Assembly (NCBI GenBank): GCA_032622095.1
Contig: CP136065.1
Location: 206,438,151-206,502,150, forward strand
Length of the DNA stretch: 64,000 bases
Direction of reading: 5' to 3'
Source: Siphonodentalium dalli
Taxonomy: Eukaryota; Mollusca; Scaphopoda; Gadilida; Siphonodentaliidae
Within the stretch, counting starts at the first letter, position 1. Every line of letters begins with the position of its first letter. Shown in pieces: positions 4,594 to 61,770 of the stretch. Position numbers and translations under genes: made by a program. The notes below the pieces were generated by a model that saw only the letters and a list, made by a program, of their open reading frames with translations, was not told the DNA's origin and did not search any database.

Positions 4594-30204
<25,611 letters not shown>

Positions 30205-31926
30205 TGATGTTAATTATAGGCTGTTTTCATATATTGGAAACTTGTGTCATTAAGTAAAAAATGGAACAAAACAAAACAAAAACGAGTCAGTAACTTAAAT
30301 CAAGTGGAGAATGGACCCAAGAGTGCGTTTGTGGCTGTTTCGTTATGAAAGGATTATTTTCTAGGCAAAAACACGATAGTATCAAGTGATAAAATTATAT
30401 GTTATGGAGTTTTGCTGTTCATCAGTCCAGTCTTCAGCCCAAATTTACTGTGATATCAGAATTTCAATGGAATCCATTCGATCTTAGTTATTGAGCAAAC
30501 CTTCCGTTCTTGTGCGGTACCCAAAGAAAAAATGTTAAAAGTGTATAGAATTATACGAATAATACCGTATAGTTTAAATGCTATGTATTTATAACAAGAA
30601 ACGAAGCAAAAATAAATAACTGAGATCCAATGGATTTAAGATGTGAAAGCCCATCACCCCTTTAAATGACAACCTGAAACCTCATGAGGAATCACAATGA
30701 CTGCAGCACAAGAGTAGAGCTTAATGAATTCCTCTTGATTTTTGTGATGGGGGGGGGGGGGGAAAGGAATTCATTTTCCAGTTGTTAAGACGTCTCATAC
30801 CAAACTGTTTAGTGAACTGTGCTTTATTAATCTTAAAAAATAATTTATTTCAATAGATGGTTTATCTTTAAGACCTTATTAAGAATAGATGTATATGTAA
30901 TCAAATTGAGTGTCATAAAAATTGTTATTAAAAGTTGGGAATTAAAACCCTATCTTTGTATGCTAGACACAGATGTTTGTTGTATAAATTATCTGTTTTT
31001 AATTCTGTGAGACATCGTTTCTCATGGTGGGACTTGTTTGGGTATATTCCTTGTGCTTGTATTTCCTGTGGTTATTCAAAGGGTTCATGGGCCTTTAGAA
31101 AAGATGTGTCACATATACCTTGGGCTTTTCTGTTTCACATGTATATATAACACCAATTTCAAATTTGATAAAATGCATTCATTTGTTTTGACATCAGCAG
31201 AGAATGTTGAAATGTCGGATATGTAAAAACATCTTAGGTTCTCATAGCATGCTATGGTTTTATATGCCATACTTGAACTTTGGAATTCCTCGTATGTTAG
31301 CCATTCTTCATATGTTAACAAGAATTTCATACTTATAGTTTTGAAGGTCTATTTATTATTCATTGTATCATCAGGTATCATTGTGAATTTTATGGAGAAA
31401 AAATACAAAAACAAAGCATTTCTGAATCTAACCATATATGCCGCATGTTCCAGTGCTGGATATATGATAAACAATGGTCCGGTTCTTACATTAGTCAGTG
31501 CCTTGTGTCAACCAAACAATTAGTTTGGATTATGCAGCATGCCCAGATAGAGACATACATGTATCTGTTGATCACGACTGCAAACTGCTCACACATTGAC
31601 ATATCTGGACAAAATATTACAACAAGCTATTCTATTGTGTGCTGGATCATAAGTTCTACTTACCCAGTACATGAACAAGTAATCGTTTCCTAAAATTTAA
31701 GCATGGTGTCTTGAGTAACAGTTTAGTTACCTACAACATTTGAATCTCTCTAGAATACCAAGGGCAAAGTTTTCAACCTCGGCACATGCCGACTTATTGG
31801 ATTACAGTCTGAAAAGCAGTCGTCGACTTTGTTCAACCGGTCCCGGTGATAAATTTAAATACAAAATCCAAAAGTGGGACAGTGGATCGATTGAATCCTT
31901 GAGAATTGACTTCTAGCTGCAATATA
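30205..31926 (+). other. PP2A-C 3' untranslated and downstream region
   Basis: No coding sequence recognised. A candidate poly(A) signal AATAAA lies at 30611-30616, about 407 bp after the stop. A 14-bp G run at 30749-30762 follows. The true 3' end is not determined. Small frames at 30935-31693 have no family motif. Confidence 0.5.
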
Positions 31927-32125
31927 CAGTACAATGCTCTTAAGTAATCAACTCCTTAACCACAGTAGAATTATGGGTAACTTTTCAGGATTTAGTCGGA
32001 AATATGGCTTGTTGCCATTCATCGGAAAGATGAATGAAAACAAGTCATATTTCCGACTAAATCCTTGAAAAGTTACCCATAATTCGGCTGTGGTTAAGGA
32101 GTCGATTATTTAGAGCATTACTGTA
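31927..32125. mobile_element. Hairpin MITE, copy 1 of a pair
   Basis: Arms run from CAGTACAATGCTCTTAAG through CTCCTTAACCAC and GATTTAGTCGGAAATATG, and return as the complement to GATTATTTAGAGCATTACTG. The loop is near 32022. A sister copy lies at 35426-35637. Confidence 0.88.
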
Positions 32126-32678
32126 TGGAGGCAAATTTGATTGGCTTTGGCAATAGTGAATTCTTACTCGAGATCATAACCTGAGTGTATTGTGATGCTA
32201 TAACATTTTGCTCCTTTTGCGCTTGAGGAGAAGCTGTCATAGTGTGCCATGATCTGTGGCAAATGCTGCATTTCAGTTTAATCTATACCATTACATGAAA
32301 TGCTCAAAGCTTTCAACATAGGTTTCTACGCATAATATTTCCATTGTTTATATGGTATAACTTGACAATCCATATAACACAGCCATTGTGTTGAGAATGC
32401 ATGTCTTATGGATAGTTTGGTTTCATAATTCATGGGTCTCTGGGACTATTATTATGACTTATTACACTCCTATGAGTGATTTCCATTGAAAACGCTATTA
32501 ATTAAAAATGGTAATGTCACTAGTGAATTATGTCATTTCCCGTGACATCATTGACGTTATGTCGCTTACTGGTCCAGACTGAATTTTCGATGGTTGATCT
32601 TTCTCCACATCGGGACTTTCATGCATTAATTCTGTGTGTTTTAATCATATTTGGCGAACCAAATTGATGCAGAAGTGT

Positions 32679-34300: not shown

Positions 34301-34440
34301 CGTCATAAATTTATACTGTACATCTACTAAGCTTGAAGGACGATTTCAAACATGTTGAAGAATTGTTGATCAGGAAACTAATAATATAACCAGTTGGTGC
34401 AGGGACCAGCCTGGAGGGCCACTTGGGAGCAAGTCTGAGA

Positions 34441-34629
34441 TTAGTGTGTCTGTCATTTGCAGAATGAGGTCCCCGGAGGATGAATTTAGTGACGCTATCC
34501 CGCATAGTGGGCAAGCATTCTGCATGAGGTCCCCAGAGAGTGAATTTAGTGATGCTAGCCCGCTATGCGGGATAGCGTCACTAAATTCACCCTCTGGGGG
34601 ACCTCATTCTGCAAATGACAGACACACTA
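34441..34629. mobile_element. GAATGAGGTCCCC MITE, copy 3, longest
   Basis: Has perfect terminal inverted repeats of about 30 bp (TTAGTGTGTCTGTCATTTGC and its complement at the right end) around GAATGAGGTCCCC arms. An additional half-unit is inserted on the left, so three arms are present. This copy defines the full ends of the family. Confidence 0.85.
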
Positions 34630-35425
34630 AACTGAGGCTTGCTTGGGAGACCTCTTCTCCTTAAAATGTGCTGCTTTTCCCTATTTTTATCCCAGGGAGA
34701 AATGACGTCTCTCATATATACCAATATTCATATGTCCAACATCATGTTTAAAGTATATCTATTGATTACAATGATATACTTGCTCACCATAATGGTTGCA
34801 TAATACTCATTGAATCACAGAAGGTTATGTTCGGGTGTAAGTGTACTTCATCCATAGTTACTTCTCCCTGATAACAGTCCACTTCTCCCTAATAACCAAA
34901 CGGAGAACTGACTTATCCAAATTTGAAACCTCTAGGCTGGTCCCCGAGTTGGTGTACCCAATCCCACGTGTTTGATGCTACTTATTATAGTATTTGCAAA
35001 ATATTACCTTCAAAGGAATAGATAACATGCTATCTACTAATAAGTTTGGATCTATCATTTCAATTAACTTTTTCTGAGTCTGGGCTTGCCAGACCACACT
35101 TTAAATAAGTTACTGCACACATTTCAGTTATATTTGAGTCCGTCTTAATCATTTAAAGTCATAAATATTGCAAAGATCTCACTGTCATTTCTCAACAAAA
35201 ACAAATGTTACTTAAAAGAACTTCACTTCAATTTTTCCACAAAATGATAACCCCCATCGCTTTCAGGAATAGCACATCTAGCTTGTCATTAGCATGTATT
35301 TCAGGAAATCTTGCATCTCTTTTGTGACAACGGTACGATCTCAGTTATTACGCTGGTCACAAAAGCATCCATCCTAAGGCATGAGAAATCCCAGCTTCCC
35401 AGCAAGCTTACTGAGATACATGCTA

Positions 35426-35637
35426 CAGTAATGCCCTAAATAATCTACTCCTTAACCATAGCAGAATTATGGGTAATTTTTCAGGATTTAGTCGGAAATA
35501 TGGCTTGTTGCCATTCATCGGAAAGCTCTCACAGAGCTTTCCGATGAATGGCAACAAGCCATATTTCCGACTAAATCCTGAAAAATTACCCATAATTCTG
35601 ATGTGGTTAAGAAGTCGATTATTTAGGGCATAACTGT
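35426..35637. mobile_element. Hairpin MITE, copy 2 of a pair
   Basis: Same family as 31927-32125. The arms are longer and nearly perfect here (CAGTAATGCCCTAAATAATC to GATTATTTAGGGCATAACTG) with the centre AGCTCTCACAGAGCT, so this is the less eroded copy. Confidence 0.9.
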
Positions 35638-35924
35638 ATATCAGTGACTCGTTTGATGGCTTAATCTTGATCGCCACAATTGGTATATGTTTACTGTGGT
35701 AATCTGTTGCCAGTATTTCATCACCGGAATGAAAATGTTGACCCTAGACCAATGTCAGTAATATCACCCCCTCCACCCCCACCTCTGTACAGACGCCCTC
35801 ATGTCAGAGTCTCATCCTTAGTATTAGGCTCTGTGTGTGCAAGATTAAGAACAATAAAGCAATTATTTGTCAGTCATGGTTCTCTTCTATGTGCTCCCTG
35901 GGAGATGTACATGCTGCTCATTTG

Positions 35925-41288: not shown

Positions 41289-43069
41289 AGCTCAACTTTA
41301 CTTTGTAAAGTTTGAGCTATTGCCATGGCTTTGTCGTCCGTGTGTGCGTGTAAGGCGTCAACAATGCAGTCTACATGTCGTAACTTCGGTAGGATCATTA
41401 TGAAATTTGTCATAGCTGTTGACATCAACATTTAGACCAGAATGATTAATTTTGGGGTCATTTGGTAAAAAAAAACATGGCCGCCAGTGGCCATGTTGCA
41501 TTTCAAAATTCAATCCATTAGCACGGGCTACAGGGCGTACTGTTTGTCTGATCGTCATGAAATTTGTCATGGATGTTAATATTGACATGTAGATGGGAAC
41601 GAGTAATTTTGGGGTCATATGGCCAAAAAACATGGCCGCCAGCAGCCATCTTGGATTTTACTCTTTGTATGACTAAATTCTTTAGCACGGGCTACATGTC
41701 GTACTTTTAGTCTGATCATCATAAAAATTTGTCAAGAATGTTAATAATGGCATGTAGATGGGAACGAGTCATTTCGGGGTCATTCGGCCAAAAAACATGG
41801 CCGCCAGCAGGCATCTTTGATTTCACTCTTTGTATGACTAAATCCTTTAGCACGGGCTACGGGTCGTACCTTTAGTCCGATCATCATAAAATTTGTCATG
41901 GCTGTTGAAATTGGAATGTAGATGGGAACGAGTCATTTTGGGGTCATTCGGACAAAAAACATGGCCACCAGCGGCCATCTTGGATTTCAAAATTCAATCC
42001 ATTAGCACGGGCCACAGGTCGTACTGTTTGTCTGATCATCATGAAATTTGTCATGGATGTTAATATTGACATGTAGATGGGAACGAGTAATTTTGGGGTC
42101 ATTCGGCCAAAAAACATGGCGGCCAGCAGCCATCTTGGATTTTACTCTTTGTATGACTAAATTCTTTAGCACGGGCTACAGGTCGTACCTTTAGTCTTAT
42201 CATCATAACATTTGTCATGAATGTTAATAATGAGATGTAGATGGGAACGAGTCATTTTGGGGTCATTCGGCCAAAAAACATGGGCGCTAGCAGCCATCTT
42301 GGATTTTACTCTTTGTATGACTAAATCCTTTAGCACGGGCTACAGGTCGTACCTTTAGTCTTATCATCATAAAATTTGTCATGGCTGTTGAAATTGGAAT
42401 GTAGATGGGAACGAGTCATTTTGGGGTCATTCGGACAAAAAACATGGTCGCCAGCAGCCATCTTGGATTTTACTCTTTGTATGACTAAATCCTTTAGCAC
42501 GAGCTACAGGTTGTACCTTTAGTCTGATCATCATAAAATTTGTCATGGCTGTTGAAATTGGAATGTAGATGGGAACGAGTCATTTTGGGGTCATTCGGAC
42601 AAAAAACATGGCCGCCAGCGGCCATCTTGGATTTTACTCTTTGTATGACTAAATTCTTTAGCACGGGCTACAGGTCGTACCTTTAGTCTGATCATCATAA
42701 AATTTGTCATGGATATTAACAATGTCATGTAGGTGGGAACGAGTCATTTTGGGGTCATTCGGCCAAAAAACATGGTCGCCAGCAGCCATCTTGGATTTTA
42801 CTCTTTGTATGACTAAATCCTTTAGCACGAGCTACAGGTTGTACCTTTAGTCTGATCATCATAAAATTTGTCATGGATGTTAACGATGACATGTAGATGG
42901 GAACGACTCATTTTGGGGTCATTCGGCCGAAAACATGGCCGCCAGCAGCCATCTTGGATTTTACTTTTCTCTTCATGTCTTTTAACTAGTATTAGACATT
43001 CAACTTTCCACATTCCTAATCGCTCCATTGACTGTAATACATTAAATTATTCCCTTTCCAAGTTGAGCT
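41289..43069. mobile_element. Tandem-core element, family B copy 2 (longest)
   Basis: Bounded by AGCTCAACTT and AAGTTGAGCT as at 11781-13138. The core is about nine units of roughly 180 bp, more alike to one another than in copy 1 (CACGGGCTACAGGTCGTACC, AACGAGTCATTTTGGGGTC, CAGCCATCTTGGATTTTAC), so this array was homogenised or expanded more recently. Confidence 0.87.
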
Positions 43070-46892: not shown

Positions 46893-47369
46893 TTAAAGGT
46901 ACTCAACCCGTAAAGAGGGTCCCCATCTCAACAGATTCCAACAACAACAATCCGATCAGAGGGTCCTATATTACTATTTCTTTGGCTTTGGGGGTAAAAA
47001 ATATTTGATTCGAGTCGAGGAACCCATCAAACAAAGCTCAGAGTTATTAGATATTGATTTTTGAAAATTCTTATGTTCTCGAGATGAGTACTTATAACTG
47101 CCGTCAATTTGGTAACATGCTCGAGATTTTACGCCAAAATTCTATTCAAACAGACAAGGATGGATAACTCTATAATCAAGTGGTAATAATTGACTACGTA
47201 CTGGGCCAGGAAGAATTCCCGATAATGAAAAATAATAGATTTCTAAAATCGATATCTAACAAATCTGAGCTTTGATGGGTGACTTCCTCGACTCGAATAA
47301 AATATTTTTGACCCCCGAAGCCATTGAAATAGTAATTGAGAGGAGTTTTATCGGGTTGAGTACCTTTAA
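46893..47369. mobile_element. TTAA-flanked MITE (piggyBac-like), 469 bp
   Basis: AGGTACTCAACCCG at the left and CGGGTTGAGTACCT at the right are exact inverted ends, each bordered by TTAA (46893-46896 and 47366-47369). The arms stay recognisable for over 150 bp (CGAGTCGAGGAACCCATC against GGTGACTTCCTCGACTCG). TTAA target duplication is the hallmark of the piggyBac superfamily, so this is probably a non-autonomous relative. Confidence 0.8.
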
Positions 47370-47644
47370 CATTGAACAGCAGAAGTGAGCAGACTCATGA
47401 TCTGCATCAGGTTCTAGCTACGGTTAAGACAAAAAAAGCTGCCGGCGGAGAAGGTCAAGGACATACGAAGTATGATGCGATGGATGCCCGCAATCGACAA
47501 GGAGTTATATGATGAAATTTTTTCGCAAATAACTCTCTAAAATTGTAAAAGTACAGTAGCACAATGATATTTGCATCTTTACTCTTTTCGAATGATTGTT
47601 CCTGTAGAAATAACTTTTATCAAATGAACATGAAGACTTTAGCA

Positions 47645-47858
47645 TGGTACACGTTAACAAACAATAACATAAGTGGGTCCAGAATCACACCATCCGATAA
47701 TATGAGATAAGATCAATGTTATTTATAGTCGGATATGTACAACGATATAAAACACACATTGTTGTACATGCATATCCGACTAAAAATAAAATTAATCTTA
47801 TCTCATCTGATGTTGTAATTTTGGACCCATTTATGTTATTGTTTGTTAAAGTGTACCA
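47645..47858. repeat. Long hairpin inverted repeat
   Basis: The left arm TGGTACACGTTAACAAACA and the right arm TGTTTGTTAAAGTGTACCA pair. Inner arms include CCGATAATATGAGATAAGAT and TAGTCGGATATGTACAAC with complements. Arms are about 100 bp. Confidence 0.85.
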
Positions 47859-48602
47859 AGAGTGTAGACAAGATCTGAAAACTGAGTTGTTCCAAGTGAT
47901 TAAAATCTATGCCGCGAGTTTACACACATGAGAGCCATTGTGACTTTAAGTTTAAAATATTATTATTATTATTGTGATGTGGTGTTAGTTCGGGATTGCT
48001 AAGAAAATATTATTTGCCGAATATCATGTAAATTGTTCATTGAAGTCAAGAAGTCATTGCATTTACTCTCATGTGTTGAGTTCTTTCCAAACTGGACACT
48101 TTTCCACTAAGATATTAACACAGATGTGTCTCAGAATATAAGTTTTCAATAATGTCTTCAATGGGTATATATTTTAATCATAGCCAAAATGTGCCAACGT
48201 TAAAGTCCTTGTGTCCCTTTATGTCAGTTTTGCCATGTTTTAAATGTGTAACTTTAAAACCCAGTCAGGGTGTTTTAATTTGTGTCTGTTTCTGATGCGC
48301 ATAATTTGCAGAAGTTTGCTTTATAAGATTTTTCGTTGCACGGTCTCACCCGAATGAGGCGTGAGCAGCTGCTCTCGTACCTTGACAACATATTACCAAT
48401 TGAAATGGGTGTTATATCGGCCTCGTTTTTAAAAAGGAAATTAAATAGTATTATGCCGTTTGGCCGTTACCGAGTTAAAATAAAATAATCTTGTTCCCAA
48501 GTTTATTGAATGATTGTGTGGAATTAGAGCAGTGTACAACGAGTTAACTTTGTCAAGGTTCGAGTTGACTGCATGTAACACTTAAGTTAATTTTAACAGT
48601 GT

Positions 48603-49007
48603 ATGAAACACAATATTGTTTTATTTAAAAGAAAACGTTCTGTTATAACGATCGTTATTGTCTTATTCGATTCAACAATTTCCCTGCGTGAGAAGGAATA
48701 CCTTAATATAAGATATTTATTAACCACACAAGCAAACGTCCAATGTGACAGACTCGTAAAGGCATCGTGTCCCGGAGATCATGCACCATTTTGCACACAC
48801 TGCCAAAAATTACTTTCTATGGAAATCAAGTGTTTTTCTGTGTCCATCATATTTAAGTTGTCTCATCCCAGTGAGGATGATAGGGTCCAACGTCGCGTGC
48901 GAGGGTTTCATATCCGCGATTTGAGACCATGTCACCCCACTGTGCTGAGACAACGATGTTGTCAAATGATTGGTTTATCTAGATTTTTGTGGCGGAATCT
49001 GTACTGA
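48603..49007 (+). CDS. Hypothetical open frame inside the 4.4 kb element
   Basis: 134 codons, no known domain. A Cys/His stretch (CPGDHAPFCTHCQ) is the only notable part and could be chance. It ends about 560 bp before the right inverted repeat. Confidence 0.2.
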   Translation: MKHNIVLFKRKRSVITIVIVLFDSTISLREKEYLNIRYLLTTQANVQCDRLVKASCPGDHAPFCTHCQKLLSMEIKCFSVSIIFKLSHPSEDDRVQRRVRGFHIRDLRPCHPTVLRQRCCQMIGLSRFLWRNLY

Positions 49008-49570
49008 TTTCCGATCGTCAGTAACTTCGATCGTTTTACCGACATTTAAAAGCTTTAAGAATTTTCGCCTGTTGTTAAGTTTTCGACTATAAAATCCTCG
49101 TTTGATATCTTCCTAGAAATCAACAATATATAATATGTGTGTAACAGACACGCTACAACATACCTTGCAACGAACCTAAATTAATCGTAAGCAAATGCAA
49201 GAACACGAACCCGCAGTACTGACCACTTACCAGTACCTTTGTTGAACCCTTTAGTCCACACCAAAATATGCAGTTCCGGTGAGCCATAACGTTCTATCTC
49301 CGAGTGCTTTTTAGCCCGGAGACAAAGTGGCAGTTTTGTCCAAACACGTTTTCACGTTTTTCACGAAAACTCTTTGGTTTTAGGTATTAATATTTCACAT
49401 GGAATCACGTTGTGATATATTGTAACCGTTTAACTCAACTACAACAACATTACAGCTATTTAAGTTTGAAGAATCGGATCATGAATCTTCAACATCGATT
49501 TCCCACAAAACGTGCCAATGGGACATAGAACCCTTTGGTTCTCATGCGACGCCTGTTGTCTCTCGGAGGA

Positions 49571-50892
49571 CGACTATTAACCAGGACGGACCTGACTACA
49601 AGCATACTAGGACTAGTCTATTGGAACAAGACGGCTGTCAATCAAGACTAGACGACTATCTGCTGAGAGGACAAGATTTAGTTTAGCAATATTGGCTGCG
49701 GAAATGTAAAAATGTGCATTTGTGGCATGTGAAAATCAAGTTAGAAACGTGCAATATGATGCGAACCGGACGTAAAAGGCATTTTACATGGTATAATCGA
49801 AAGTTTACCGGGAGTTCAATACACTCCTGTTGGAGCACCACGCTTTGAAATCGGGCTCGTATGTCGAGAAAACACAGGAAACAGGGGACAAACGCTAAGC
49901 GTGGCTTTCAATGGGATATTACGGCATCCAAAACATGTCTTAAAATAAGACATCGTATAGTTTGAAAAATGGGCTTTTGATCGCAAACGTGACGTGTTTT
50001 TAGCACGGAAATAGGAGGTTTAACCTTGATTTACGAGAGAACTAGACACTGAAACGTAATTAGTACGAAAATGTAGCGGAACATACCCCTCATCGAGGCA
50101 GATTGGCACCCGGGCTGGGATTTTTACACAATTGGAGGGAAAAACGAACATATACGTACCGTAGTCAGTCTGAGGCGAGCGACTTTTATTTATGACTGAT
50201 TACAGCAAACCAGCGTTCACTTCCGTCCACACACAGTGGGATCCACGTCTCTATATGCATATGTAATATAAGTACGTCCGTTTTTAGCCATTCGACCAAC
50301 GCCATATAGAATGGAGGTCCCTATATAGATAGGCCGTGTGCGCCACCATAGCTTGGCTATGGACCCAGACTCATATAGGTAGGAAATTGAGACGGGCCAC
50401 TATGGACAGCCCATGTATCCAGGCTGATTTAGTTATGACCTTATCCAACAGTTATGACCTTAATTATTACCAGGCATTTATATGTAACACATGAACCCAT
50501 CCCATTAATGTACATGATTGTTACATGACTATCTAGGTTGTAATCACAGCCACGCATACGCCATGGACCCATGTGGACACCACATGTAGTGTAATTACAC
50601 AGGTGCCTGTAGTAATGAACTCATGACATGTACCCAGGTCTATACGGCAAATCAATAGAACCATCCCTAAATAGTATATCATCGGTCCAGGCCCCTTTCT
50701 ATATGACATGGACACAGTAGTTAAGACACGTCATTTGAGGCAATTCCATAAATATAGGTCACGAATCAAGATAACTATGGGTTGGTAATGGGCCCATGGC
50801 AGCCCATGTAAATGGGCACCGGTTCCAAAAGGTAGTTCATGGTATCTCAGTCTGAAATATATAGCCATGCATGCTCATATACGAGCTCCTAT
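49571..50892. other. Gene-free stretch between two TIR elements
   Basis: Less AT-rich than its surroundings, with many short CCATGGACCC / ATGGGCCC-like fragments and ATATAGGTAG motifs. No gene or clear repeat recognised. Confidence 0.5.
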
Positions 50893-51063
50893 TAGACCAG
50901 GCTGTGGCGGAGGTAGGTGCCACCGGAGAGCGCAGAAATTGCGACTGGTATTTTCTGATAGGTATTCTCCAGGGGCATTATGACATTGGAGGGGATCTGC
51001 TGGGGCATATATAGAGATACTACAGCCTGTTTACCATTTTTTTCTCTCAAAATTTGCCGAAGA

Positions 51064-54000
51064 TATTTTAATTCACTAAAAAATACATATAAATTCACAA
51101 GTTAGGTTTAGAAACATATTGCAAGCGTTTTTATATTTCACAAAGTCTTATCTATAAGTTCAATAAAGAACGGATAGTTTTATTTCAGGCAAAATATATA
51201 TTTTGCTAAAAAATCTTATCTATTTCATGAAAAATATCGAAATTTTCAAAATTTTGCCCACACATAAGATGCGATAACTTCTAAACAAAATAGACTAAGA
51301 CTCTGAATGTGCTTTAAAAACCCGACACAAAGATTATGCTATAATACGTACTAAGACCCAATGTGCAATCAGTTTAGTTGAGATATTAAGAAATATTTCC
51401 CCTACCCAAAAATTTCAGATTTTTTCGAGATTTTTCAAAAAATTACAAAAAGTGAATTGTTTGGCGAAATATTGGACCACTGGGTATGTTTTTACGAATT
51501 TCATTCGCAAATAGATGTATTCAAGTGTAAACAATCCACATCTTACACACTTTAGGAATAGATATGCCTAATTATTAAAAAAAACCTCAACTTGTATTGG
51601 TTTTCAACCAGTCAAACCAAATTCCTACCATATTGCTGTAAAATGCATCGTAGTTTCACAATTTCAATAGCACGTATATCCTAATGCATCAGTATTCGAC
51701 ATGACTAATTTGAAAAATATTGAATAAAATAAAATTAAAACAAACGTTTACTTCGCCTTCCTTCCTAATCATACGCGGGGAAAGTCATTACCACAAAACA
51801 TTTTCTCTTGGTTCTCGGTCTGCATAATATTACTGCCAGTAATTTACTGGCCAAAAGAAACCTATACAGGTAGCAACTCATTTAGGCCATTGCATTGATT
51901 ACAATTTAGTATGCGAGATCGAGACCACACAGGCTGAAAAGGCACAGCTACTTGCAAGTGGGACATTGCCATTAAAACCATCACATAAAAAGCAAACTGT
52001 TCTGACATACTTTTGGGTTGACAACTTTGAAATGAACTTGGAGACACAAACTGGACATGGGGCTCTTAATTCCACCCACATTGTAGCTCTACAAGAGGGG
52101 TCCCATCTTCCCTTATATTTAAAACAAACAGTTATGTTTGACAGAAAGAACAACAAAAGTTGAACATGAAACAAGCGGAGCAATTGGACATAATTGTGGC
52201 TCAAAAACGTTCACCTTCCATGGTTGGAGTTGATTTAATCAACGAGTCATTTCCAATGAAACCTATGCAAATGCGTATGTTCTCTGTATCATTGTTAGGC
52301 AAATAAATACTAAAGATGAGACTGTGATAAGATATGCAGGGTGGCATATCTAGACCGACAACATTCTTCATCAGAAGGTCCAAAGAAAACAGTTTTAACA
52401 TACCTACATCCCATCTAAGGTCACCAATTTCAGAACAATCGAGCACTATATGGTATATCTTCAGAAACTCGCCATAGAAGTTAACATGTTAGTGTGATCC
52501 TGAATGTCGGTGCAGCAATTATTGCATACAACTTGGTTTGAATTTCTCAGAACGCTTCAATAATGTTGTTATCCATTTGGGAGATTTCCATTTCATTAAG
52601 GAGATATTTTTTTTAATTCTGGTTTTGAGGACATTGTGTTTCAAGCAGTTGTTTGCTCTTCATGGAGGTTGAATGGTGTTTTGTCTGTAATCATTATAAC
52701 CAATGTTGGACTGTTCATAGTGCATTGTCGGAAGCAATAGAAAAGCTACTATTTGACAGATTCTTGTTGGAGCATGATACCCAGATACCAGAAGTCTTAG
52801 TTCAGTCAGTCAGGGATTTCATATATTACCCAACATCAGTTCAATATGTTGATTTCATTTGCAAATACAAATTGTTCAAACAAGACATTCGGCACTGGAA
52901 GTTCGGTGAAACTGCACTATTTTAATTCACTAAAAAATACATATAAATTCACAAGTTAGGTTTAGAAACATATTGCAAGCGTTTTTATATTTCACAAAGT
53001 CTTATCTATAAGTTCAATAAAGAACGGATAGTTTTATTTCAGGCAAAATATATTTTTTGCTAAAAAATCTTATCTATTTCATGAAAAATATCGAAATTTT
53101 CAAAATTTTGCCCACACATAAGATGCGATAACTTCTAAACAAAATAGACTAAGACTCTGAATGTGCTTTAAAAACCCGACACAAAGATTATGCTATAATA
53201 CGTACTAAGACCCAATGTGCAATCAGTTTAGTTGAGATATTAAGAAATATTTCCCCTACCCAAAAATTTCAGATTTTTTCGAGATTTTTCAAAAAATTAC
53301 AAAAAGTGAATTGTTTGGCGAAATATTGGACCACTGGGTATGTTTTTACGAATTTCATTCGCAAATAGATGTATTCAAGTGTAAACAATCCACATCTTAC
53401 ACACTTTAGGAATAGATATGCCTAATTATTAAAAAAAACCTCAACTTGTATTGGTTTTCAACCAGTCAAACCAAATTCCTACCATATTGCTGTAAAATGC
53501 ATCGTAGTTTCACAATTTCAATAGCACGTATATCCTAATGCATCAGTATTCGACATGACTAATTTGAAAAATATTGAATAAAATAAAATTAAAACAAACG
53601 TTTACTTCGCCTTCCTTCCTAATCATACGCGGGGAAAGTCATTACCACAAAACATTTTCTCTTGGTTCTCGGTCTGCATAATATTACTGCCAGTAATTTA
53701 CTGGCCAAAAGAAACCTATACAGGTAGCAACTCATTTAGGCCATTGCATTGATTACAATTTAGTATGCGAGATCGAGACCGCACAGGCTGAAAAGGCACA
53801 GCTACTTGCAAGTGGGACATTGCCATTAAAACCATCACATAAAAAGCAAACTGTTCTGACATACTTTTGGGTTGACAACTTTGAAATGAACTTGGAGACA
53901 CAAACTGGACATGGGGCTCTTAATTCCACCCACATTGTAGCTCTACAAGAGGGGTCCCCTCTTCCCTTATATTTAAAACAAACAGTTATGTTTGACAGAA

Positions 54001-54771
54001 AGAACAACAAAAGTTGAACATGAAACAAGCGGAGCAATTGGACATAATTGTGGCTCAAAAACGTTCACCTTCCATGGTTGGAGTTGATTTAATCAACGAG
54101 TCATTTCCAATGAAACCTATGCAAATGCGTATGTTCTCTGTATCATTGTTAGGCAAATAAATACTAAAGATGAGACTGTGATAAGATATGCAGGGTGGCA
54201 TATCTAGACCGACAACATTCTTCATCAGAAGGTCCAAATAAAACAGTTTTAACATACCTACCTCCCATCTAAGGTCACCAATTTCAGAACAATCGAGCAC
54301 TATATGGTATATCTTCAGAAACTCGCCATAGAAGTTAACATGTTAGTGTGATCCTGAATGTCGGTGCAGCAATTATTGCATACAACTTGGTTTGAATTTC
54401 TCAGAACGCTTCAATAATGTTGTTATCCATTTGGGAGATTTCCATTTCATTAAGGAGATATTTTTTTTAATTTTGGTTTTGAGGACATTGTGTTTCAAGC
54501 AGTTGTTTGCTCTCCATGGAGGTTGAATGGTGTTTTGTCTGTAATCATTATAACCAATGTTGGACTGTTCATAGTGCATTGTCGGAAGCAATAGAAAAGC
54601 TACTATTTGACAGATTCTTGTTGGAGCATGATACCCAGATACCAGAAGTCTTAGTTCAGTCAGTCAGGGATTTCATATATTACCCAACATCAGTTCAATA
54701 TGTTGATTTCATTTGCAAATACAAATTGTTCAAACAAGACATTCGGCACTGGAAGTTCGGTGAAACTGCAC
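51064..54771. repeat. 1854-bp direct tandem duplication
   Basis: 51064-52917 is repeated at 52918-54771. I could see only about eight single-base or small differences. The junction is at a 6-bp TATTTT microhomology shared by both break sites. The copied unit includes part of the left TIR and the 5' portion of the decayed gene, with the same frame breaks in both copies, so it arose after the gene had decayed, or is an assembly artefact. Confidence 0.93.
51780..52917 (+). pseudogene. First (truncated) copy of the long-TIR element gene
   Basis: Holds the 5' part of the gene described at 53634-57353: the LTYFWVDNFEMN block (51910-52163), the NVVIHLGDFHF block in another frame, then VHSALSEAIEKLL through KFGETAL, where it is cut by the duplication junction. 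A 40-bp GT..AG interval at 51870-51909 separates two frame-compatible blocks (KETYT and VCEIETTQ) and could be a tiny intron. Confidence 0.75.
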
Positions 54772-57353
54772 AGTTCTGGCTCACTCTGAATTTAGACCTG
54801 ATTGAGGTTCAACACTTGGCACACCACACAGTACAAGAATATATATTTGATTTGCGCCTATTTTGTTGGGAATATTATGTTCCATTATATTTTGCAATGA
54901 TGAAGACAAATTATGCAAGATATGGGTCGCATTATGTTGAAGTACTGAAGCACACTGAAAGCTTGTATACTGGTTTGAAGAAACATCAGTGTGAAAAGGG
55001 GATGTCGGTACAAGTTCAAGATAACGTTCCTTTAAGAGTGGCGATAGACCAGAGAGGCGAGCAATCTTTGAACAGGAAAGCCAAAACAGCCGTGGAATCA
55101 AAAGTTTGCTTCAGATAGTAATTTGAAGTGGACATTAAATCGCCCAGAACAAGCTAAGAATACATAAGCACTTTTGAAATTAGCCAACGTAGATAATCAC
55201 AGTTCCAAATATAAACCGCTGCGGCCATATCAAATTTTGAAATCGGAGAAACACGTGTCAGATTTTTTTAAGGTTTGAAAACCGATTACATTAATCCTTT
55301 CAATAAAGATCTTGAGAAAACGTTACTCTCCCATTTAAGTTCTGGTATCCCCCTTCCATTGCAAGTTTCAGAGGAAATTTTCTCGAAAACAACAATTGGA
55401 GCGGAAGCATATAACTTTTTCAAACAAGATCGTCTCAAAGGCAGTTTCCATGACCCAATATCTATAACAAACTTGAAATTATTTTCAAGAGTAAATAGGA
55501 GAGTATATATTTTGATAAAGCTCTCGCGTACCCTTTATGCCCGTTCCCCTTAGCCTAGCAAACGTTGATGGCACACGCAGAGTTACTGCTAAATGTAAAC
55601 TACAAAAATTCAATTCTGTCTTATTCACATACACATATTCTACACACAAAATAGTCACTACCTTGTAAACTAGTGTTTCAACATTTAGTGTTGACATGAT
55701 GGCACGTATTCACATGCTCGTTCTATTGCCCGATACATATGAAGAAGTTGCATGGAGTTCTTGCAATCACTGCCTTCGGGTTACACAATACTAGTCATTG
55801 TTGTTGATATACATAACAAGAGCAAATCAGCCGAAAGGAGTATAAAAAGGGCTATTCTGACAAAGTTATACCACAGTCAAAGATTCCAATAAACTTTAAT
55901 GATTTTCTGAAAAATGGTGAAAATAGACAACGTTTAATCTCTTTGATCGAGGATGTTATAGTTGCCAACCGATGTAAGGCCCTACGTATTCATCATTGTA
56001 AAGAAATATATATTTCGACAGAAAACACTTGAATGCACATTAGCTCGTTGGTGGTGACAGTAGAAGAAACTTGTAAGTAACCAGGAGGATGCTGACACAA
56101 AATTAATTTTGCATTGCATACATGCCCTAGAGTTATTTCTTGACAATAATTTTGTTCTGTTATCACCATCGGCAGATGTAGATATACTGGTAATAATGTT
56201 AAAAGTGCTGGGTGGATCAGGTTTACCTTATATTATAGGAGCGGGATACATCGCAAGGGTATCAAGCTGGGTTGATTTTGAGCAAAGATAAAAAGAAAGC
56301 TGTGATTGGTTTCCATGCATTTACCGGTAATGACTACATCCCATCGTTCATTCGTAAAGGTAAAAGTGTATTCTGAGGCCTGTACTATAGATTTACAATT
56401 GCCGTGTTTGAACAAGTGTACAAGGTTATGTGGGGCACACAGAAGGTGTCGATTACCATAGACCTCCACTCTTATTCTTACAGTGAAAATGCGACTTCTT
56501 GCAACGCCTCTTTTACATGCATGGTCACCAATAAAATAATAGGTTTACCACATGTGACTTGATTGACCAATGAAAAAAAAATATTCCTCGGAGACACTCA
56601 TTGATATGTTATCGCTAGTGCATGGATAATCCGTGTTCAATTGTATTAGTGGTAATCGGTATCCTTTAAATAATAGCTCAGTGAGTACGCCGCAACCGTT
56701 CGTGCATTGTGGTATATGTCATCAATGGTTATCGTCTGTTCAAACAATTCAAGTTTTAAGATGTATATCAATTTCTAGTTGGGTTGTCATGCAAAATCGC
56801 TGGAGTATTATATTGAATACCATTCTGATCAAACCCAATCACCCATCGGTAATGAGCACACGGGTATAATCTACTCTATTACAATACAGTGGTCTATTGC
56901 ACTTCACGCCTCCTGTGTACCTCCCATAACCTTGTACACCTGTTCAAACACGGCAATTGTAAATCTATAGTACAGGCCCCTGGAAGGCATTGGAGAATTG
57001 CGACAATTTTATTGGGACATTTATTACATTAGGACATTCAAGGACTCTTTGAAAGTAAGGTTGCAGAAGAGCTTGGGGAATACGCATATTTACTTCATGG
57101 GTGTCGCCACAAAATGGTCAATGATGCTCGAAAGCAACAACTTGAAAGAGAATGTTTTTGGGCCAAAACAAAGCTATTGACATTTCATTGTTACCACCAC
57201 GTAATGCATCATTGAAGTTATGCAAACATTGTTGCAAGAATTTGGCGGTTAGCAGGCAGGAGGCAAGTGGAAATACCCCCTTTGTACAATAATGGTTGGG
57301 CGGAAGATTTCCAAATTAAATGGATCGAAGAGGCGTTCCCTGATGATATATAG
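53634..57353 (+). pseudogene. Decayed gene for a large uncharacterised element protein
   Basis: Blocks of one protein follow in order but in shifting frames. They are VCEIETTQAEKAQ and LTYFWVDNFEMN (53763-54017), NVVIHLGDFHFIKE (about 54410-54460), VHSALSEAIEKLL through KFGETAQFWL, TNYARYGSHYVEVL and AIDQRGEQSLNRKAK (54507-55118), KPLRPYQILKSEK (to 55271), YINPFNKDLEK (55275-55553), LANVDGTRRVTAK (about 55560-55605), EDADTKLILHC and SPSADVDILVIML (56085-56291), IGFHAFTGNDYIPSF (56287-56376), DISLLPPRNASLKL (about 57177-57220), ending NNGWAEDFQIKWIEEAF and TAG at 57351-57353. I recall these blocks from large multi-copy uncharacterised proteins of aquatic invertebrates; no name is known to me. 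The D-x-D and GNDY blocks resemble PIN/FEN1-type nuclease motifs (inference). At least six frameshifts or stops make it non-functional. Confidence 0.8.
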
Positions 57354-57396
57354 GGTTTCCTAATGGATTGTTACCTCGATGTGTCTCACGGAGACA

Positions 57397-57498
57397 GTGC
57401 CATTTAAAACAGTGATAATCTAACACAGTGTATGGTGTCGCCTGTCGGTGCCATTTAAAACAGTGATAATCTAACACAGTGTATGGTGTCGCCTGTCC
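57397..57498. repeat. 51-bp tandem duplication
   Basis: The block GTGCCATTTAAAACAGTG to ATGGTGTCGCCTGTC occurs twice with a period of 51 bp and no visible difference, just after the decayed gene stop. Confidence 0.9.
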
Positions 57499-58411
57499 AT
57501 TATAGATGTACCCTGTATCACATACCATTAGTGTTTCTTTTTCTTTTGTTTTGTGTTGTCATGCACACCAGTTCAATTAAGATGATCTGTTGCATTTCAG
57601 TTGAGTATTTTAATTACGTTTGTTGTTTCTGGCAGAGCAGCATGCACTCATCCCATTCGTTGTATCGTGTCAATATAAGTAAAATGTCGAGGAGATAGGA
57701 AGTGGATACCTTCCTGTTTATTCAGGACTTGGTTATAAGTCGTAATGAGTGCAAATGCATCACCCAATTAACAGTATATGAATTACGGCAAGCTATCGTA
57801 TATTTGATCAATTTTGATATCAAAGTCGGCTGCACAATTTTAACTTGTAGGCATTTATGATTGGAAAACACCCTAAATGGGCGCTTTTTAAAAACAAACA
57901 AGGCATATATATTCCTAAAGTTTGTGCGTTGTGGTGTGTATACACTTGATATATATACTTACGAAGACGATTGGTAAAATCATACCCAGTTGTCTAATAT
58001 TTGTTTTGTCTTCATTTTTATGAAAAATCTAGAAAAATCGTGAATTTTGGGTCGGGGAAACATTGAGAAATCGCCCCACTACTCGAATTGGAATTTCACA
58101 TTGAGTCTTATTACATCGTATAGCATATCCGTTCTTTATTAAACTTATAGACAAGAGATTTTTCAATATAAAAACGCTTGGAATTTATTTCCAAACCCAA
58201 TTTGTGAATTTATATTTATTTTATAATGAATTAAAATATTTTAGGCAAATTTTGAGAGAAAGAATTGGTAAACAGGCTGTGGTATCTCTATGGCCCAGCA
58301 GATCGCTGATCACCTCCAGTGTCATAATGCCCCGAGAGAATACCTATCAGGAAATACCAGCCGCAATTTCTGCGCTCTCCGGTGGCACCTACCTCGCCAC
58401 AGCCTGGTCTA

Positions 58412-60654
58412 TAAGACTTGTAAATGACTTATTACCATGTATTGACATATATGTAGTTTTGGCATGGATAGGAAGGTCACGCAGTTAGTTCCTACGTATA
58501 GCAACTAGTATGCGGATGCTAACACACCGTGATAGAGTGTTCTGCATGGATGCCATTGTCAAATGTAGTGCGAATGTCGGATTTTTTTTAAGTCGAACAC
58601 TAACAACAACTATTACAATTGTTTCACCATAAAGTGATAATGACGTAGTTTATATAAGGATTAACTGTCATGTGGACTGTTTTTTTTATGGAGATGTAAC
58701 CGTGAGGTAAGTGGTCATAACTTGTGTGACAATATGACAGTTAATCCTTATATTTATATACATTTAGCGAAAAAGCCACTTTTGTAAATGTATTTAAATC
58801 GAAAAGTGTATCGTGACAAAACCAGCCCAAAATATCCCACAGCACCCTTGGCAAAAGTTAACAGGAACAATTGAAATCCGACGATTTATTAAGTCAATCC
58901 TGCGCGAATCCAAATGCGCCCAAAACATTACGCGTTCGTCTTTCCAAACCCAAATGACGTATCGATGTTGTTATGAGCTGACGTATCGATGTTGTTATGA
59001 GCTGTTGCGCATTCACCGAGAATTAATTGCAACTAGCCACGTGGGCGCCGACCAATCAGAATTCTGGATTTAGTGATGACAACACTTAGTATGTAAATAT
59101 ATTAGTTTGTCAAAACTACCATAATATCAGTCAGCTCGGCATTTTTCGATTTCGGGTATGTCCATAGCAACCGCTACCGCACATGTAAGTAAGAGATATG
59201 GTAATTTTCCAGCCAGATCCACTCTAACAACATCTAATATTATTTTCACCATAAAAATGCTGCATGACGTAGTTTAGATTGTTAAAACTGCCATACTATC
59301 AGTCATAGTTGTATTTCTTCGATGTCGGATAGTTGCCTAGCAACCGTTGCCAAGGAATGACCTGCCGCGATGTCTACACATCTGAAAATGATTTAATAGT
59401 GTATAAGGAACATATGTGCCAAGTGTTATTGTGTTATCACCATTTTCACAATTGTTACGCCAAACGCCAGGATTAATATTATGTGGTATTATTGCCTTTC
59501 ATACACTTGAAGCCATGGCGTACGTTTTAGGGGGTAGTGTTATGTTTCCGGCTATAACATCTTAAGGGATGGCGATGGTTCGATATATCTTATCACTTTC
59601 CTTTTCTGAATTAACCACTGTTCTTGTATAATGGTTCATATTTTAGCTCATTGTCGTCTAAATATCTTTACTCGCCCTCTTTTATTAGGAAAATTTTGAA
59701 TCACCATGCGATTTATATGCTCTCTTCGGCAATACATGTCATCACAATTATGGAATATCGACTTTTGGCAAGCTATGGCATCAATTACGCATATCTATCG
59801 ACACTTGCTCCATGGCGGACGGGTATGTGTGAATATTGAGTCCGTAAATTAGCCTACATAATTATGACTGCATTCACATATGGTCTGATTGAATTTCGTC
59901 AGAATTTGCACCATTACGAAAAATCATCATAAACATCTTCTTAGTAATCCCTGAAAAAAAATCAGCTTTCCCCGAATGTTTTGCCCTTCTGAAACCAAAT
60001 GTGCCTGGACTAAAACGGCCATACATGCAGACCGTTTGTTGATCTTGTTATCTGAACATTTCCCATCAATGAATAGGATCCTACTGCATCAACTTTTCGT
60101 GTGTCTGTCGTGTGCTAATTTCTAATGAACATCCGTCCGCGCGAATAATATAATCAATTTCAATATATTCTTTTATCACTGAATGGGCGAATCTAATTAG
60201 TAATCAAATAGGGTTATAATTAAGCTAAATATTTCCATGCAATGCCCGCGATTCGCAATAAACTATATGTATAAAGTAAAGTAAAACGAGTGCGTTTCCA
60301 AATACACCTCGGAAAAAAAATATTGTCAAGAATTCACCCGCATGATGTTCATCTTGGGGGAAGAGTTGCCAAATTGTGAGAAATTCTCTCGGAAAAAGTT
60401 AATACTGATCTACAAGATAAACTTGATATACATGTATGTAATTGGTGGCATTCTGCGTATATTTTGAGTCCTTCTGGACAAGAAATATGCTTTAGATAGC
60501 TGCTGACGGACCATCGTTCCGAAAAATAGAACATTTTCTTCCCCCGAAAAAAATATACAAGATAGTGATTATCATTGCGTCTGGCGGTCGTCGGTTCGAA
60601 TACCCTTAACATCCCTCCAAATGAGTAATAGACCATTCGAATGTATAATTTTTT
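58412..60654. other. Gene-free stretch with small repeats
   Basis: Contains a hairpin at about 58650-58765 (TATAAGGATTAACTGTCAT against ATGACAGTTAATCCTTATA), a 24-bp perfect duplication at about 58954-59001 (ACGTATCGATGTTGTTATG), and two diverged copies of a CATTTTTCGAT..TAGCAACCG block near 59140 and 59310. No gene recognised. Confidence 0.65.
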
Positions 60655-61770
60655 AGCTCACATGAGGCGAAGTCTCCGGTTGAGCTATAGTCATCACTCC
60701 TCGCCCGTCGTCCGTCCGTCAAGAATAGTCCTCTTCTCCATAACTATAAGATCAAATGGGTTAATATTTGCTGTGGATGTTCCCTAGGGGACTCACATTC
60801 AGAGTTGTTCAAATGAGGTCACCAGGTCAATTAGTTGCGAAACCAGGGCCATAATTCTATTCCACCATAGTAATTTATAGAACGACTTCTTATCAAGAAC
60901 AATTGGGCAGATTTAGCTAATATTTGGATGTAACTTGGGTGACTGGGGTTCAGATTTGTTCAAATGGGGTCATTGGGTCAAATAGGGGCCGAACCAGGGA
61001 CTTAACTCTTAAAAAAATATAAATATATTTTTAAATTAAATCCTTGCTCAATTAAAAAAATATTAAAACAAATTTAAACAAAAAAATTAAACTAATTTAA
61101 ACTCAGATTTAACTCCATGGTCAAATTTTTTTTTCCTAACATGTTAAACACATTGAAAATCTAATGCCATTACCATTCTGAGGTTATGCCCCCTGGCCCT
61201 TCACTCAAGTTCACTGCTTATACCCCCCTGGTCCCAAAACTAATATTTACTCAATTTCTTGACAGAGAATCATTAATAAAAAGCATTACTTTGGTTCCAA
61301 CTGTATGCCTACACACGTCAAGTGAAATCTGACATTATATCTATAAACATTCCCTGGAGATCTGCTAGAGGTCATCAATTCCTAATTACAACAACAATAT
61401 ATCATTTATTTTTGTTCAAATCTCTCAATAGGACATTTAACACTCTCACACCCACCACCCCACAAGAGAACATATTTGGCACTGCCAACTATACTATTTC
61501 AGTTCAGATAGGGTCACCAGGTCAAATAAGGGAAAGGTCAAGAGCATACTTTCCCTCTATAGTAACCCTTAAAAAAGTCTTCTTTGACAGAATCACCAGG
61601 TCTATTTAGATCACATTTAATATTGAGGCTCCTTTGGTGATCGTGTTTCAGATTTGTTCAAGCAGGGTCACCAGGTCAAAAATGTGCAAGGCCAGGTACA
61701 ATACTCTCCATAGTAATTCATGATATGTCTTCTTTGCAAGAGCCAAATTGCCTATTTTACTTATATTTGG
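60655..61770 (+). mobile_element. Tandem-core element, family D copy 4
   Basis: Starts AGCTCACATGAGGCGAAG, then CCGTCGTCCGTCC and diverged core units. The unique part (CAAGTTCACTGCTTAT, AAACATTCCCTGGAGATCTG) matches copy 3 at 39890. Confidence 0.78.

Follow-up and report, generated by a model that had tools for sequence, protein, structure and literature searches.

What kind of element occupies positions 50893–58411 of the window (the whole 64,000-nucleotide stretch of Siphonodentalium dalli DNA analysed here), and to what class does it belong? An earlier note had described a mobile element with long terminal inverted repeats (TIRs) around a single large protein gene, and had called it apparently undescribed and its protein unlike any transposase class. 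The long TIRs and the single large gene stand; the claims of an undescribed element and of a protein outside the transposase classes were not established, and an AcademX element fits the anatomy. The stretch is a probable mobile element with nameable ends, in which long TIRs enclose one decayed plus-strand gene, and we lean, if only slightly, towards a cut-and-paste DNA transposon, once autonomous and now dead, that would belong to the AcademX lineage within the Academ superfamily.

The left TIR, which starts TAGACCAGGCTGTGGCG, occupies 50893–51569 on the plus strand (~677 bp) and the right TIR 57901–58411 on the minus strand (~511 bp), both delimited by BLASTN and by the match of a 17-mer. 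When the window was searched with this 17-mer (TAGACCAGGCTGTGGCG), allowing up to 3 mismatches, two matches were returned, both exact, at 50893–50909 (+) and 58395–58411 (−), against a chance expectation of 0.04 matches and with two matches reached in 0 of 100 shuffles. With BLASTN pairing of the repeats and an exact 17-mer at both ends, the inverted terminal repeat of more than 500 bp reported previously is real. Because the outer parts (50875–51176 against 58126–58427) are 85% identical and the inner parts (51335–51569 against 57901–58127) 72% identical by BLASTN, and because ~158 bp of the left TIR (51177–51334) have no counterpart in the right, either this copy has aged or its two TIRs differed from the start. 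The element may in truth begin with the A at 50896 rather than the T at 50893. At both outer ends the terminal 10-bp motif CAGGCTGTGG has an inverted copy ~120 bp further in, exact on the right (CCACAGCCTG) and differing at one base on the left (CTACAGCCTG), placed as a putative protein-binding site might be. Hairpins predicted for the outer ends were not significant (z-scores −1.40 and −1.81), with 19 and 9 of 200 shuffles folding equally well.

The present 7.5 kb extent of the element is correct as first described, but it is not the original size, since the interior holds two duplications and a nested insertion. A young tandem duplication has one unit at 51064–52917 (+) and the next at 52918–54771 (+); the two are 99.6% identical (BLASTN), differing by 7 substitutions in 1,854 bases. 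Stops and frame breaks are common to both units, from which we infer that the duplication came after the gene had decayed; lying inside a much older element, it is either a recent event or an assembly artefact. Between the protein block FHAFTGNDY and the C-terminal protein remnants sits a nested, MITE-like inverted-repeat element of 604 bp (56376–56979) with ends RGGCCTGTACTATAG, whose inverted ends measure 88 bp at 87.5% identity (BLASTN) and which is flanked on both sides by the 3-bp sequence CTG; a flank scan offers as an alternative a 3-bp GGC with ends at 56380 and 56974. Within the PHIS superfamily, to which PIF/Harbinger belongs, the NuwaI group is described as having CWG duplications (PMC4482050), and because the CTG flanks fit such duplications the insertion may be a NuwaI/Harbinger-like MITE. 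Two copies of a 50-bp repeat, spaced 51 bp apart, lie 3′ of the last protein block (57397–57497). Subtracting 1,854, 607 and 51 bp from 7,519 bp leaves ~5,007 bp as the length of the element without these later additions.

Every protein block listed in the earlier note was located in the window, bracketed by the TIRs, and all are plus-strand and follow the order of the note: LTYFWVDNFEMN at 52002–52037 and again at 53856–53891, KFGETAQFWL at 54753–54782, AIDQRGEQ at 55041–55064, FHAFTGNDY at 56311–56337 and NNGWAEDFQIKW at 57288–57323. The block LTYFWVDNFEMN occurs twice because 51064–52917 is tandemly repeated. It belongs to an N-terminal protein remnant, an open reading frame at 53697–54014 (first copy 51843–52160), followed on the same strand by the longest open remnant (54483–55115, 211 aa), which contains KFGETAQFWL and AIDQRGEQ, and by open remnants of 93 aa (55272–55550) and 71 aa (55817–56029). 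A further plus-strand remnant at 56064–56374, with a frame change inside it, carries EDADT, SPSADVDIL and FHAFTGNDY, and the series closes with C-terminal remnants (57033–57350, +) that lie in a single frame, separated by a stop; NNGWAEDFQIKW is in the second of them. Altogether the remnants begin ~270 bp in from the left TIR and stop ~550 bp before the right one. We take NNVVIHLGDFHF at 54413–54448 and DTYEE at 55732–55746 to be further remnants of the same protein family, and presumably the blocks are those of proteins common in invertebrate databases as 'uncharacterised', with metazoan relatives that carry them.

Decay of this frame was measured independently of relatives, as the minimum number of stops and frame changes that a reading across a given stretch has to pass, and compared with 300 dinucleotide shuffles. 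Positions 53697–56375 needed 16 disruptions on the plus strand, a value reached by 0 of 300 shuffles (mean 28.5, minimum 21). The minus strand of the same stretch needed 19 (0/300 shuffles), an openness taken as the antisense shadow of the gene. On the plus strand, as few disruptions were seen in 2/300 shuffles for 51843–52917, 0/300 for 53697–55118 and 1/300 for 55119–56375, and in 65/300 for 56980–57352, a stretch too short to tell. Among controls, the flank 58412–61091 needed 28 disruptions (135/300 shuffles as open) and the flank 47000–49678, rather open itself, 25 (16/300), while two short plus-strand controls inside the element were unremarkable (107/300 and 94/300). The figure of 16 was the lowest among 246 stretches tested in the window, where two others scored 17, so that the statistic is not unique here. 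These results point to a decayed plus-strand reading frame between the TIRs, and the remnants of one large plus-strand protein gene that had been proposed are borne out, spanning most of the interior.

Further indications of what the protein may have done come from its back half. In 56064–56374, EDADT, SPSADVDIL and FHAFTGNDY occur in that order, which is reminiscent of FEN1/XPG nucleases, and are followed by KGK; the S-x-D-x-D and G-x-D-Y motifs have the same order and register as in FEN1/XPG nucleases. A pattern of acidic-A-acidic, S-x-D-x-D and G-x-D-Y appeared in 0 of 20,000 shuffles and its last two motifs alone in 6 of 20,000, both patterns having been written after the sequence was seen; the FEN1 chain tested fits the two-motif pattern only, not the three-motif one. 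Alignment with hhalign to four FEN1 chains set SPSADVDIL against SASQDYDSL and GNDY against GTDY in register, with a score of 12.05 that was equalled or exceeded in 111 of 200 shuffles. The protein differs from FEN1/XPG nucleases in having no significant sequence score to them, and the read-through protein (P0001) matched neither XPG_I nor any other Pfam family at E-values up to 10. An XPG/FEN1-like nuclease in the back half is accordingly offered as a suggestion at the level of motifs.

Family models gave little more. No Pfam family reached its cut-off in nine protein pieces, and low-scoring candidates (HutD 0.013, MACPF 0.018, TBCC 0.054, WKF 0.14) fell below their own cut-offs and were discarded; no NCBIfam family was found for six pieces, and no Academ-type DDE transposase model appeared among the Pfam and NCBIfam results for these decayed pieces. 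Modelling with AlphaFold was uninformative, with mean pLDDT values of 45 for P0001 and 33 for the 54483–55115 piece.

Relatives were sought at protein and DNA level. Against viral contigs, the 54483–55115 piece matched by pattern in 1 stretch, P0001 in 10 and the C-terminal piece in 8, none of them confirmed. For the N-terminal piece 1 viral stretch matched and was confirmed (E 6e-4), across query residues 37–52 only; that locus showed no convincing match to any other piece, and the hit was taken as chance. The 16-mer from the TIR hit 11 viral stretches and the HAFTGND pattern 18 viral and 16 prokaryote stretches; in tblastn of nine pieces against 45 loci selected by either sequence, the best E-value among the 12 best rows was 0.006, over 23 residues. 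The 54483–55115 piece had no tblastn match among plasmids and phages, and of three protein queries against the PDB, two found a single match at chance level and one found nothing. No description of the protein family appeared among the titles and beginnings of abstracts listed from the Academ, XPG and transposase literature. With no relative for comparison, an undescribed class is neither established nor refuted.

The window has a GC content of 37.6%, probably represents animal DNA and contains several features besides the element. Of 21 listed stop-to-stop frames that reach 110 aa or more, 8 were scanned with Pfam, which found a calcineurin-like phosphoesterase in an exon-like frame at 8255–8623 (+; PF00149, 1.7e-11), probably a host gene and by eye a candidate PP2A catalytic subunit, and a reverse transcriptase fragment at 1–375 (−; PF00078, 3.8e-10). 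Two related tandem arrays (11862–13047 and 41371–42968), ~28 kb apart and with a unit spacing of ~160 bp, are mostly 70–84% alike. Near-palindromic repeats of ~200 bp lie at 31922–32126, 34428–34643 and 35424–35641, the first and last of which match each other. Rfam had no match in the window.

The nuclease of AcademX is of the XPG type. One account describes AcademX elements as combining 3–4 bp target-site duplications with a nuclease and AcademH elements 9–10 bp duplications with a helicase, a difference in duplication length that its authors relate to the encoded nuclease or helicase (PMC10045372); another paper names a RecQ helicase in Academ (PMC3627910). A mollusc survey puts Academ in third place when it lists DDE/D superfamilies by number and describes it as, among molluscs, almost limited to bivalves, where 100 curated Academ consensus elements average 5,565 bp (PMC10294476). 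Set beside such descriptions of Academ, the present element appears similar in possessing TIRs, in its length of ~5,007 bp against that bivalve mean (a typical rather than strictly defining trait) and, weakly, in an XPG/FEN1-like motif order where AcademX is described with a nuclease. It differs in having no clean 3–4 bp duplication and in that nuclease and DDE domains went undetected in the decayed copy. Membership in AcademX is likely as a matter of judgement and is not proven.

If this assignment is right, the original element would have been ~5.0 kb long, with TIRs of 0.5–0.7 kb and one plus-strand gene of ~1,000 codons, supposing that it had no introns. As in AcademX, its protein would have had a DDE-type transposase region and, behind it, a flap nuclease region resembling XPG/FEN1. 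Such a protein would presumably bind the TIRs, excise the element and reinsert it at a new site, duplicating a short target there, while the nuclease region trims flaps. The TIRs, the place and orientation of the gene, its decay, the duplication and the nested insertion are seen directly, and we infer the superfamily, the catalytic chemistry and the role of the nuclease.

The flanks bear on this assignment and on its rivals. They were scanned with symmetric ends placed from 3 bases outside to 3 bases inside the termini, for one old copy. Across that range no exact 3–4 bp duplication was found (best 2/3 and 2/4). With ends at GACC there is an exact TA, and 4/5 at length 5; unequal ends give an exact 4-bp CTAT and, at another unequal pair, an exact AGAC. 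The best symmetric direct repeat is CTATTAG/CTATAAG, matching at 6 of 7 positions if the element starts with ACCAGG at 50896.

That this best symmetric match is 7 bp long, and not 3–4 bp, favours a DNA transposon of some superfamily other than Academ, either uncatalogued or known but unrecognised, for which CTATWAG could be a true 7-bp footprint; the lack of any family model matching the protein pieces tested agrees with it. Yet a flank match of this quality, equalled by 945 of 20,000 random pairs, is no more than mildly unusual, and a copy so decayed and fragmented may escape the models, whose silence then says little. We consider this reading possible but unlikely. A more specific proposal, an uncatalogued animal superfamily with an unrecognised transposase plus an FEN1/XPG-like nuclease, a high-copy 'uncharacterised' protein, ends ACCAGGCTGTGG and a 7-bp near-palindromic duplication, we regard as improbable.

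Alternatively, the TIRs could belong to a foldback-like or other element, the gene within being either its passenger or some older repeat that has nothing to do with it. The element is known here from a single copy, no convincing further match to its DNA or its protein pieces having turned up elsewhere in the window, which leaves room for such an arrangement; the remnants, however, run in one orientation from close inside one TIR to close inside the other and leave little spare room, and we think this explanation rather doubtful.

Kolobok elements resemble the present one as TIR DNA transposons and are found in molluscs, annelids and cnidarians among others, but their TTAA duplications (PMC9587614) were absent from this one copy, whose flanks read CTCCTAT and TAAGACT. 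AcademH, the helicase-carrying Academ lineage with 9–10 bp duplications, shares its superfamily with AcademX and would also suit a large protein gene between TIRs, but it is very improbable here, no helicase family being found in the nine pieces scanned, which represent part of the decayed protein only, and the best matches at symmetric ends of this one copy being 3/9 and 4/10, so that neither trait described for the lineage was seen.

The AcademX assignment thus remains our preferred reading, and the locus is well seen but probably ordinary: an Academ-like transposon of some age that was damaged later. Provided that its gene and TIRs form one unit, a search of the host genome with the terminal sequence could find intact copies, and the mobile element behind an 'uncharacterised' protein family common in invertebrate databases could be named. 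Should the element be Academ, as we think most likely, the gain would be the annotation of a known kind of element; should it not be, the ends of an entire transposon superfamily would become defined.
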